The translations under genes were made by a program, and so were the position numbers. Positions 3,091 through 26,547 of a stretch of 38,531 nt of DNA are shown here, piece by piece. The notes below the pieces were generated by a model that saw nothing but the letters and a program-made list of their open reading frames with translations, did no database searches and had not been told where the DNA came from. How positions within the stretch are numbered: the first letter of the stretch is position 1; every line of letters starts with the position of its first letter. Source of the DNA: Anaerolineae bacterium (lineage in GTDB: Bacteria > Chloroflexota > Anaerolineae > DRVO01); assembly GCA_013178015.1 (NCBI GenBank), contig JABLXR010000005.1:1-38531 (forward strand), read 5' to 3'.

Positions 3091-3490
3091 GCCACACCTC
3101 CAGACCAATCGCTGCAGACCAACGCTTGCCATTATGCCACACTTCGTGTCATGTGTTGACCGCGTCCGGTTCCAGAGGAGGGGCACTCCTGCCCCGGGGA
3201 TGGCAGGAGCCCGCATCCGACAGCGGCCTCGGGGTTAGCTCATGGCTCCTGAAGGCGCGCCTTTACAGCCTGCGTTGCTTTCCCTATAGTGTTCCCAACA
3301 CGTAGCTATGAGAGCTCAGGATCGGCGGAACGAGTGTGTTCAGATGGCAGTCGCAGGGAGTAGACCCGCGTAAGCGCATTCTACACAGGCCTCCAGGGCC
3401 CGCTCTTCGGCCGGCTACGAGGACAAGGCGATGTGGTTCAGCTCCTTCCTGAGGAGTGAGCGCCCCGGGCTCGGCGAGCCGGTGGAGGCA
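3091..3490. other. Gene-free stretch upstream of repeat array C
   Basis: No supportable gene. A long minus-strand frame (3284-4354) crosses it but reads antisense through the real secreted-protein gene and through the repeats, so it is rejected. The last 40 bases (about 3451-3490) already resemble a divergent repeat-C spacer. Confidence 0.5.
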
Positions 3491-3657
3491 TGGCGCGCGT
3501 GGGCGCGCGCACTCCTCGGACGGAGGTACGCCAAGCGCGGCGAGCAAGTGGGAGTATAGCGCGCGTGGGCGCGCGCACTCCTCGGACGGAGGGTGCACCA
3601 GGCGCGATGGGCCGGTGGAAGCATGGCGCGCGTGGGCGCGCACTCCTCCTAGAGAGG
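3491..3657 (+). repeat. Repeat family C: tandem array, three copies, 66-67 bp period
   Basis: A 36-bp unit occurs at 3491-3526 and again identically or nearly so at 3557-3592; a shortened version lies at 3624-3657. Its core is GCGCGCGTGGGCGCGCGCAC followed by TCCTCGGACGGAGG. The intervening 30-31 bp segments are related to each other (each ends in a GGTGGAGGCA or GTGGGAGTA type phrase). This is therefore a tandem repeat of about 66 bp and not a set of unique spacers. Isolated copies lie at 2478, 7181 (inverted), 7335 (inverted) and 7614. Confidence 0.85.
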
Positions 3658-3820
3658 GTGGAGCTGGAATGCAGCCGGGGCCTGCTCTCGCAATCTGAGC
3701 GCAGCGAAGGACCTGAGCGGCAGTGGCCGTCTCAGGACCCATCCCTGCCGATCCTGAGGTGTGGCGCTTAGCCGACAGCGTGATGTCAGCCTTCGGTGTC
3801 GTAAGGCGAAGGAGTTGGAA

Positions 3821-5461
3821 ATGCGCGCCAATGTTGTTGTCGATGCTGTCCGTTCCCGTGCTATTCGTCTCTATTGCGGCCTTCTCATCTTGGCTCTCGC
3901 CGCTACGCCGCTGGGGGCCGTGGCGCAGGACGCCGAGACCGATGCCCCGCTGGAGCCCGCCGTCCATGAGGGGGCCGACGAGGTCGTCCTCATCAACCGC
4001 AACGACGGCCGTGTTGTGATCCAAGACTTCGCCGTCGAGCCCGGCACAGCGGATCTCACTGGCAAGTACGACATCTTCGGCGGGCCCTACTACGACGTGG
4101 CCGCCGGAGACTTTGACGGCAATGGTCGGCGGGAGATCGTGGTGATCGGCGGACTGGCGGTCACCCAGCCTGGACCCATCCTCAACGTGTGGGACCCGGT
4201 GGCCCTGCGCGCTGGCGAGCCCCAACTGCCGAATCTCTCCGTGAACGTCAGCCCCAACGTCTGGACCCACGTGGCCGTCGGCGACATCAACCACGATGGG
4301 CGAGACAAGATCGTCGCCATACGTACCGCCGATGAAGGCATCATACGGGCCCACATCGTCGCCTTCGGGTTCGACCCCGGCACCGGCCAGTGGCGACCCA
4401 GCCCCCTATGGGACCTGCCTACCGCCGGCGGCTTCGTGGACCTAGACGTAGGTGACTTCGACGGCGACGGCGCGGACGACGTCATTCTGGCCCGCGAGGG
4501 CCGCATCATCATCGTCAACGATGGCGAGGCTCCCACCGTCACCCACTTCCAGGCCGAGATCGGTACCCTATCCAGCTGGACTAGGGCCAAAGTGGGCAAC
4601 ATTGACGGTGTGGGCACCCCGGAACTGGTGCTCCTCCGACCGCAGCCTGCCCTCTCGGATGGTGTGCCCGCCGCCGTGCTGGCTATCCACCCCACTGGAG
4701 TCTCAACCTGGACCGACGTGGCCCGCTGGGGATTCACTGACCCGCCGGTAGACATAAGGCTGAGTGACATCAACACCGACGGAGTGCCCGAAGTGATTGC
4801 CCTCACCACCGGGGCCGGTGCCTCCATCTACACCCTCAACCCTCGCCTGCCCGCGGAGGCCGGTGGCATAGAGGACCGGCTTCTCATCGGCGACAACCTG
4901 TGGGGTCCGGTGCTCCGCCTGGGCGACGCCAACGGCGATGGGCGGCCGGAGCGTATGCTGGTGGAGCGCAACGGGACCTTTCTGCGAGTCTGGGACTACT
5001 ATCCCGGCGGGGGCACCGCGGACGTTGTGGGCAACGGGCCCTATTGGCGGAACTTCGTCGCCGCTAACCTGGACGGACCGGGCGTCCAGCTTCGGCCGCG
5101 CCTGAGGGTTCCGGATTACGTCAGCCTCTTCTATCACTTGAGCGCGGCAAGGGGCACGTCGGAGACCATAGCGATAGAGAACGTGGGCAGCGGTTCCTTC
5201 AACTGGATCGCGGTGATGGGCGCCTGCCCCTGGCTCAACGCCTCTCGCCTGGTGGGTACGGCCGGACAGACCATCACCTTCAGTGTCGTGAGCGCCTTTC
5301 TCCCTGGCACCACGCCTGGTACCACTGCCACCTGTCCGGTAGGTGTGCAGGCCACCGCCACGGACGGAGGTATCGTCTTGGAGAACAACCAGGCGGTCAC
5401 GGTATCGCTTCTGCTGGTCTCCAACCTGCGGACCACGCGTCTGCCTCTGGTATTCCGTTAG
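3821..5461 (+). CDS. Secreted FG-GAP/VCBS-repeat beta-propeller-like protein
   Basis: A 546-aa protein starting at ATG 3821 with AAGGAG about 7 bp upstream. An N-terminal signal peptide is visible (hydrophobic LYCGLLILALAATPLGAVAQ, cleavage likely after AVA). At least six calcium-binding-like FG-GAP blades follow: GDFDGNGRREIVVIG, VGDINHDGRDKIVAI, VGDFDGDGADDVILA, VGNIDGVGTPELVLL, SDINTDGVPEVIAL and GDANGDGRPERMLV. The last 140 residues form an immunoglobulin-like/BACON-like region (AIENVGSGSFNWIAV ... CPWLNAS). The protein ends in RTTRLPLVFR, a tail resembling the YLPLV-type ends I recall from many secreted Chloroflexota proteins. A cell-surface binding or adhesion role is likely; no catalytic residues were recognised. 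Confidence 0.85.
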   Translation: MRANVVVDAVRSRAIRLYCGLLILALAATPLGAVAQDAETDAPLEPAVHEGADEVVLINRNDGRVVIQDFAVEPGTADLTGKYDIFGGPYYDVAAGDFDGNGRREIVVIGGLAVTQPGPILNVWDPVALRAGEPQLPNLSVNVSPNVWTHVAVGDINHDGRDKIVAIRTADEGIIRAHIVAFGFDPGTGQWRPSPLWDLPTAGGFVDLDVGDFDGDGADDVILAREGRIIIVNDGEAPTVTHFQAEIGTLSSWTRAKVGNIDGVGTPELVLLRPQPALSDGVPAAVLAIHPTGVSTWTDVARWGFTDPPVDIRLSDINTDGVPEVIALTTGAGASIYTLNPRLPAEAGGIEDRLLIGDNLWGPVLRLGDANGDGRPERMLVERNGTFLRVWDYYPGGGTADVVGNGPYWRNFVAANLDGPGVQLRPRLRVPDYVSLFYHLSAARGTSETIAIENVGSGSFNWIAVMGACPWLNASRLVGTAGQTITFSVVSAFLPGTTPGTTATCPVGVQATATDGGIVLENNQAVTVSLLLVSNLRTTRLPLVFR

Positions 5462-25497: not shown

Positions 25498-26547
25498 CTA
25501 GAACTCCCTCACCACCCAGCGGGAGACGAACTGAGCCTCGTCTAGCTCCCCCTGCAGGAACTTGGAGATGTCCGGCAAGCGGGCCCCTATCAGGGCGGCG
25601 GCGTTTCCCTGCGAGGTCGCGATCACTACCGCTACGCTGTCGAGGTCTGCCTCGGCCCCGGCTGCGAGGGCCACCTGGTAGGCGGTGATGAATATGGCCC
25701 CCAGGGGCAAGCGAAGGTTCTCCTCGCTCTCCTCCTGCTCCAGCGTAAGGTAGAGAGTGCCGATGGCCACTCGAGCCCCACCCTGGTCCCGAGCGTCCAC
25801 GATCACCACCCTACGGATGTCGTAGATCGCTAGCGCCTCCAGCATAGCTGCCGCCAGCGCCTCGTCCTCCGGAGTGCCGTTCACGGCTGCGCCAGAAGGT
25901 ACGGCCGTCGCCGTTGGAGCGGCGGTAGCAGTGCTGGTCGCGGCAGCCGTAGCCGTCGCCGTGGGCGGGACCGGCGTCGCCGTTGGAGCGGGGGTAGCAG
26001 TGCTAGTCACGGTGGCCGTAGCCGTCGCCGTGGCGGTCGAGGTAGGCGGGACGGGCGTCTCCGTAGGAGTGGGAACCGCCGTCGGCGTGCTAGTCCCGGT
26101 GGCTGTGGCCGTAGCGGTTGCGGTGCTCGTTGCCGTGGCGGTAGCCGTCGCCGAGGGCGTGATGGTGGGCGACGCTGTCGGCGTGCTGGTCGCCGTGGGC
26201 AGCTCCGTCGGCGTGGGAGAGGGCTCGACGGGGGTGGGAGAGCTCTCTGGCGTCGACGTCAGAGTGGCAATGATCAGGGTCTGGCCTACCTCGATCCGGT
26301 CGGGATTCGCGATCTGGTTGACCTCGATCAGATCCTGCACCGACACGCCGAACGACCGAGCAATGCGGCTCAGGTTGTCCCCCCGGACCACCGTGTAGAC
26401 GATGGGCTCGGGGGGAGGAGCCGTTGGGGTGTCGGTGGGGACGGTCGTAGCGGTGGACGTTGCGGCCGTCTCCGGTGTCGGCGTGACCGGGACACACGCC
26501 ACTAGGGCAACGGCGATCGCAATGAGCAGGCAGGCTCTAGGCGTCAC
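25498..26547 (-). CDS. LysM-domain lipoprotein with long Thr/Ala/Pro linker
   Basis: A 349-aa secreted protein. A lipoprotein signal peptide ends in the lipobox LVAC (Cys about residue 18). A LysM domain covers residues 50-95 (YTVVRGDNLSRIARSFGVSV, then DLIEVNQIANPDRIEVGQTL), which binds glycans such as peptidoglycan. Residues 97-220 are a low-complexity spacer of TATATAT, TPTPT and VPPT repeats, probably spanning the wall or glycosylated. The C-terminal 125 residues form an alpha/beta domain (IYDIRRVVIVDARDQGGARV, AIGTLYLTLEQEESEEN) not recognised by me. Start GTG 26547, with GGAGAAG about 8 bp upstream. Confidence 0.88.
   Translation of the reverse strand: MTPRACLLIAIAVALVACVPVTPTPETAATSTATTVPTDTPTAPPPEPIVYTVVRGDNLSRIARSFGVSVQDLIEVNQIANPDRIEVGQTLIIATLTSTPESSPTPVEPSPTPTELPTATSTPTASPTITPSATATATATSTATATATATGTSTPTAVPTPTETPVPPTSTATATATATVTSTATPAPTATPVPPTATATAAATSTATAAPTATAVPSGAAVNGTPEDEALAAAMLEALAIYDIRRVVIVDARDQGGARVAIGTLYLTLEQEESEENLRLPLGAIFITAYQVALAAGAEADLDSVAVVIATSQGNAAALIGARLPDISKFLQGELDEAQFVSRWVVREF

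Follow-up and report, generated by a model that had tools for sequence, protein, structure and literature searches.

NCBIfam release 20 already holds two models of short C-terminal tails, NF050076 'sort_motif_YLP' and NF053834 'ultrashort_CTERM', both described as YLP-box putative sorting motif-containing protein, both covering 10-11 C-terminal positions and with curated cut-offs of 15 and 10 bits, respectively. A literature search on the motif, its models and Chloroflexota sorting found no paper on the YLP-box. PorU of the type IX secretion system (T9SS) is a member of the peptidase C25 family. The T9SS signal is treated in PMC4804311 as a folded C-terminal domain, the LPXTG signal is outlined in PMC11980579 as a motif, a membrane helix and a basic cluster, and the PEP-CTERM/exosortase, GlyGly-CTERM/rhombosortase and MYXO-CTERM/myxosortase signals are likewise given as tripartite, with motif, helix and basic cluster (PMC1569441, PMC11980579). 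In contrast to these systems, which use a membrane helix or (for the T9SS) a folded C-terminal domain, the YLP tail as predicted has neither, and with the tail itself catalogued as a motif what would be new, if the reading given below is true, is its recognition machinery.

The window, that is the whole stretch of 38,531 nucleotides that was analysed, comes from an Anaerolineae bacterium (Chloroflexota) and encodes an exported protein with a tail resembling this motif; its features are as follows.

3821..5461, + strand: exported FG-GAP beta-propeller protein, 546 aa (translation, Pfam, signal-peptide heuristic)
3821..3925, + strand: Sec signal peptide, probably cleaved behind residue 35, the last of ...GAVA (read from the translation)
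4091..4831, + strand: FG-GAP repeat region, approximate limits (Pfam; the limits are a rough reading by eye and no tool output)
5432..5458, + strand: C-terminal tail TTRLPLVFR, residues 538-546 (direct reading)
5438-5458, + strand: tail core RLPLVFR, divergent and YLP-box-like (sequence, homologue comparison)
5459..5461, + strand: stop codon TAG (direct reading)

The frame 3821-5461 ends ...SNLRTTRLPLVFR immediately before TAG, and the preliminary description, which had a TTRLPLVFR ending directly before the stop, was exact in coordinates and reading when the frame was read directly. An in-frame alternative start is possible slightly upstream. The N-terminus, MRANVVVDAVRSRAIRLYCGLLILALAATPLGAVAQD, reads directly as a Sec signal peptide, and the signal-peptide heuristic is also positive but places the cleavage at residue 27. 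Pfam recognises FG-GAP_3 (1.4e-14, 4 stretches) and FG-GAP (4.2e-11, 3 stretches) in the protein. An AlphaFold2 model of the protein alone, with a mean pLDDT of 34, was worthless and is left out of the argument.

The YLP-box models resemble the tail in being short and C-terminal and in matching tails of the class, one of them (L163) at 16.5 bits and so above the cut-off of 15, and others below threshold (L150, L145, L144, L173 and an SBBP-repeat protein of the window's own genome). In contrast to these the window tail, with R at −7, is reported by neither model, the protein and its last 40 residues giving no match to NF050076 or NF053834 up to E 5 and E 10. The test is an insensitive one, as the models also miss 10 of the 10 homologue tails tested, including those ending YLPLISR and YFLPLILR; and, as in an exported YLP-box carrier, a signal peptide is predicted for the window protein. 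Across a 41-genome search of the phylum NF050076 gave 119 matches in one genome (G208), between 20 and 25 in each of three more and few in the rest; 12 of 14 control genomes also show a weak background, which in 2 exceeds the cut-off. The phenomenon is not new, being already in NCBIfam as a putative motif, and in the window protein it has a divergent carrier from a tail-poor lineage.

Homologues of the window protein provide a fair test of the tail because they were retrieved by protein and not by tail (25 places in 24 genomes, the window's own place included). At all 24 of the other places a hydrophobic-Pro core lies within about a dozen residues of the C-terminus, in endings such as YFLPLILR, LFLPLLMR, YLPVIRR and YLPLISR, several of which are canonical (YFLPLILR, YLPLISR, YLPVIRR), and within the window protein's own family QVPLIFR, YLPLAFKTGQ and RYLPLAFTAH; in a homologue alignment of 8 rows no column but that of the proline is invariant. 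In R-LPLVF-R itself the LP, the hydrophobics and the terminal R are present, with R at −7 instead of the Y/F expected there and the aromatic residue that most homologues have. Because the homologues keep the hydrophobic-Pro core, RLPLVFR is, to judge from sequence, a loosened form of the family ending rather than a product of chance.

Among 165 non-redundant tails the information is confined to positions −10 to −1, with R/Q at −9, V/I/L at −8, Y/F at −7, then L, P, L/V/M/I/F, V/I, a variable residue and R/K last; the selection itself fixed or restricted residues −7 to −3, and the terminal R excess is partly an effect of the search pattern. A helix-like hydrophobic 19-mer within the last 45 residues was found in merely 9 of 172 tails. 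Of 54 [YF]LP occurrences within 20 residues of the C-terminus, from a set of 79 exported proteins of at least 400 aa, 53 stood exactly 7 from the end, most of the stretches there having been picked by a pattern that itself fixes the spacing. Sets not chosen by tail gave exact spacing at 11 of 24 homologous places and in 7 of 16 tailed C25 proteins (by eye), mostly with 1-5 extra residues in the rest, and on these counts a strict register to the C-terminus was dropped. The candidate signal consensus is (R/Q)(V/I/L)(Y/F)LP(L/V)(V/I)x(R/K), at or a few residues from the C-terminus.

That many exported Chloroflexota proteins end in such a tail, as the preliminary description stated, is borne out: across 199 class genomes, 158 of them matched, [YF]LP[LIVMF][IVM]xR-stop has 772 forward matches and its reversed control 157 (these class totals, and the cross-tabulations below, were built from hand-transcribed per-genome rows). 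The richest genomes have 65 v 0 (G021), 44 v 2 (G128), 25 v 2 (G169), 23 v 1 and 21 v 0, and the spread across the class is very uneven, with zero or background in some groups, for example family f27. Leaving the last residue free gave 114 v 8 (G021), 32 v 4 (G169) and 37 v 15 (G445), and in these three genomes K appears beside R as the final residue chiefly in G021, all 30 sampled loci of which are true frame ends, on frames of 30 to >500 residues with differing upstream sequences. In the phylum sample 108 of 301 genomes match, and the excess outside the class is limited to families f64, f65, f75, f101 and f104, which from names in the species scan would be Chloroflexia. That scan, with a stricter DNA pattern over 84,980 species, returned 46 stretches (48 matches), 44 of them titled Chloroflexota and falling in Anaerolineae, Thermoflexia, Chloroflexia and single MAGs labelled Ktedonobacter and Aquidulcis; the others were a 16-residue Kangiella frame, a chance match, and one MAG contig labelled Acidobacteria. 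Signal-peptide-like starts were seen on 23 of the 31 closed frames among the 48 matches (heuristic, counted by eye). Within the 84,980-species scan the tail is practically confined to Chloroflexota. The Acidobacteria-labelled contig (L156, CAINFC010000050.1), with a YLP-tailed frame that is the sole plausible case outside Chloroflexota in the scan, may be contamination.

The window's own genome (4.57 Mb, 97 contigs) is tail-poor, with 4 candidates in the loosened form. Enrichment of the tail there, which the preliminary description put forward as the check, fails on counts (LPL[VI]xR-stop in six frames has 5 matches and so has its reversed control; with a broadened pattern the control leads, 20 to 10), because tailed proteins are few in this genome and have the loosened form. 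Two of the five matches close long frames, the window protein and the SBBP-repeat protein, which ends GVFLPLVLR, and the remaining three close frames of merely 8-20 residues. Among 1822 C-termini (frames of at least 100 aa in 20 own-genome stretches) LP[LIVMF][VIM]xR-stop has a single match, again the SBBP protein, which is genuinely exported. Two looser endings came from 438 kb, that is the 20 stretches and the window: RYLPLAFTAH on a paralogue at C18, 48% identical to the window protein, and YTPLVLRNAG on a 102-aa exported frame.

As to which proteins carry the tail, gene calling covered 1.52 Mb from nine genomes: G169 contributed 19 stretches centred on tails and 19 unselected ones, and the eight others together 40 tail-centred stretches. 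The counts leave out 49 frames whose N-terminus was open, among which 2 had a tail. Tails end 57 of 133 signal-peptide proteins without a further membrane helix as against 14 of 795 others (odds ratio 42, p 2e-40), the tail-centred sampling inflating the tailed fraction and not the exported/other split, and in the 19 unselected G169 stretches the figures are 2 of 15 exported and 0 of 243 others. None of 118 proteins with a signal peptide plus TM segments is tailed, both of the 2 tailed among 35 lipobox-like proteins apparently have an ordinary signal peptide in which a Cys occurs incidentally, and most of the 12 tailed among 640 without a recognised signal peptide look like mis-called or truncated starts. 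The main carriers are large exported proteins, the tailed share of signal-peptide proteins without TM being 45 of 53 at 700 aa or more, 10 of 26 at 400-699 and 2 of 54 below 400. Their folds include trypsin, S8 subtilase, M23, FG-GAP, SBBP and LamG (laminin-G), and in the trypsin carrier the tail lies 20 residues beyond the end of the Pfam domain. By sequence, then, the tail is shared by many unrelated proteins, of which nearly all have a signal peptide but neither a further membrane anchor nor a lipobox, and it lies outside complete folds and is free of a membrane-spanning helix. Of the preliminary description, the recurrence of the tail on exported proteins is supported, the enrichment expected in the window's own genome is not, and sorting or anchoring is a proposed role.

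The window tail is probably a divergent form of a C-terminal signal for sorting or retention, about 9 residues long and typical of the phylum. A carrier would be exported by Sec and its signal peptide cleaved; the hydrophobic tail and its terminal basic residue would then be recognised outside the cytoplasmic membrane by a putative receptor or enzyme, and this recognition would retain the protein at the cell envelope, in parallel to the lipid of lipoproteins and the sortases of LPXTG proteins. As the tail has no helix that could sit in the membrane, its reader would have to recognise the exposed tail as such. Sorting or anchoring by the tail is what we infer from such sequence features, with a slight leaning to docking over excision and replacement of the tail, since it requires none of the three transpeptidase families considered below. 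A bolder and tentative proposal, judged slightly less likely than not, is that an ultrashort helix-free signal serves as the main surface-sorting label of large exported Anaerolineae and Chloroflexia proteins, with a reader that is not PF04203, PF09721 or PF01364, and so would represent a new kind of sorting system. A sorting role, if true, would let one tell from the tail which of hundreds of uncharacterised exported proteins remain on the cell, and in a phylum that is common and poorly cultivated it would point to a recognition machinery of its own.

A structural or protective cap, with the tail as a last beta-strand or a carboxypeptidase-resistant end stabilising large extracellular beta-rich proteins, would suit carriers that are mostly large and beta-rich and a tail hydrophobic at −8, −7, −6, −4 and −3, and the anchoring that it would replace is itself a proposed role. 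However the same sequence stands on unrelated folds and also 20 residues past a complete trypsin domain, exported proteins of other phyla go without it in the 84,980-species scan, and a generic stabiliser would not predict that lipoproteins and membrane proteins are tail-less, which makes a cap unlikely.

For the sorting or retention signal the profile data give tail-rich (net at least 4) and tail-free class genomes, 52 and 66 in the comparison, as test genomes for a machinery hunt. Peptidase C25 (PF01364) is present in 50 of the 52 tail-rich and 30 of the 66 tail-free genomes, its presence has a partial rank correlation with the tail of 0.38 (permutation p 0.008; one genome per family, size removed), and the window's own genome has one match. 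A C25 transpeptidase of the gingipain/PorU family that processes the tail, a PorU-like sortase without a type IX secretion system, would fit these figures, and the tail-less C25 forms of about 700 aa are as an enzyme rather than cargo might look; but the tail is present on 16 of the 23 C25 frames inspected, which points to mainly frequent cargo, the single C25 of tail-rich G051, G112 and G131 is itself tailed, and verified tailed exported proteins occur in genomes where C25 was not found (G003 and G073, 97% complete; G010, 98% complete and one contig), and such processing is improbable. The C25-tail correlation is a lead and not an answer, and C25 may simply be a frequent cargo. Some of the tail-less C25 forms of about 700 aa have a lipobox or an N-terminal hydrophobic segment, and they end ...LLGDPALRL (L276, L277, L286, L293 and one of L294); the tailed forms are mostly of about 1000 aa with a YLP ending (L220, L280-L282, L288). 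The resemblance to the T9SS lies in the C25 proteins, abundant in tail-rich genomes and often tailed. In contrast to the T9SS signal the tail has about 9 residues and no folded domain, and some tailed genomes are without C25; no T9SS C-terminal domain model matched 10 tailed proteins at E<=5, two T9SS-named matches being weak, below cut-off and not C-terminal.

With PEP-CTERM, GlyGly-CTERM and MYXO-CTERM the tail shares its restriction to one lineage and its C-terminal place on dozens of unrelated exported proteins per genome, but it is helix-free, and exosortase (PF09721, in 67 of 199 class genomes) shows no clear correlation with it: over all genomes exosortase is in 23 of 52 tail-rich v 15 of 66 tail-free (p 0.017), and with one genome per family no correlation was found (p 0.86). 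No PEP-CTERM model matched the 10 tailed proteins at E<=5 and the window's own genome has no PF09721 match; the invariant Cys or GG plus helix of MYXO-CTERM and GlyGly-CTERM is absent from the window tail, and no such models were reported. In two different class families a C25 gene has a PF09721 match no more than about 1 kb away, at G051:C382 (L280) and G096:C106 (L297).

With the LPXTG/sortase system the tail has in common the Sec signal peptide, the C-terminal position, an LP and a basic last residue. Reading the nearly invariant LP as the core of an LPXTG-like signal for a class-specific sortase would agree with PF04203 in 176 of 199 class genomes, yet it is most improbable, there being no membrane helix after the LP, or between motif and basic residue, sortase presence not tracking the tail (57 of 66 tail-free v 49 of 52 tail-rich genomes, about equally common, with 20 listed absences counted and 3 further absences unnamed), and tailed G073 having no sortase match. 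That last genome has no exosortase or C25 match either, these two absences being read from complete lists of positives. Nothing follows the window tail and no LPXTG anchor model was reported for it, and the lack of an LPXTG-type motif stated in the preliminary description also holds for the 10 tailed proteins, without an LPXTG model at E<=5.

As obligatory partners the three obvious candidates, sortase, exosortase and C25, are rejected, both on their profiles across genomes and on genomes that lack them but have verified tails. Clustering of the neighbours of tailed genes gave only common families (ABC transporter-like, response regulator-like and glycosyltransferase, labels by eye), and neither family profiles nor neighbour clustering established a co-occurring machinery.

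A chance ending of the window protein, unrelated to the wider motif, can be dismissed almost entirely, for although own-genome counts are no higher than control, −7 is R and no NCBIfam model matches, the hydrophobic-Pro core is kept at 24/24 homologous places around an invariant proline and the sole pattern match among the 1822 own-genome frame ends is on a genuine exported protein.

Elsewhere in the window, a LysM-like protein at 25498-26547 (− strand) has a lipoprotein-type signal, MTPRACLLIAIAVALVAC, a Pro/Thr/Ala-rich linker and, by eye, no tail, which is consistent with a mutual exclusion of tail and lipid anchor. Upstream of the tail gene, at 3469-3659, are three 58-nt direct repeats with a spacing of 66-67 nt and the core GCGCGCGTGGGCGCGC, of which one copy each is found in 5 of the 20 other own-genome stretches.
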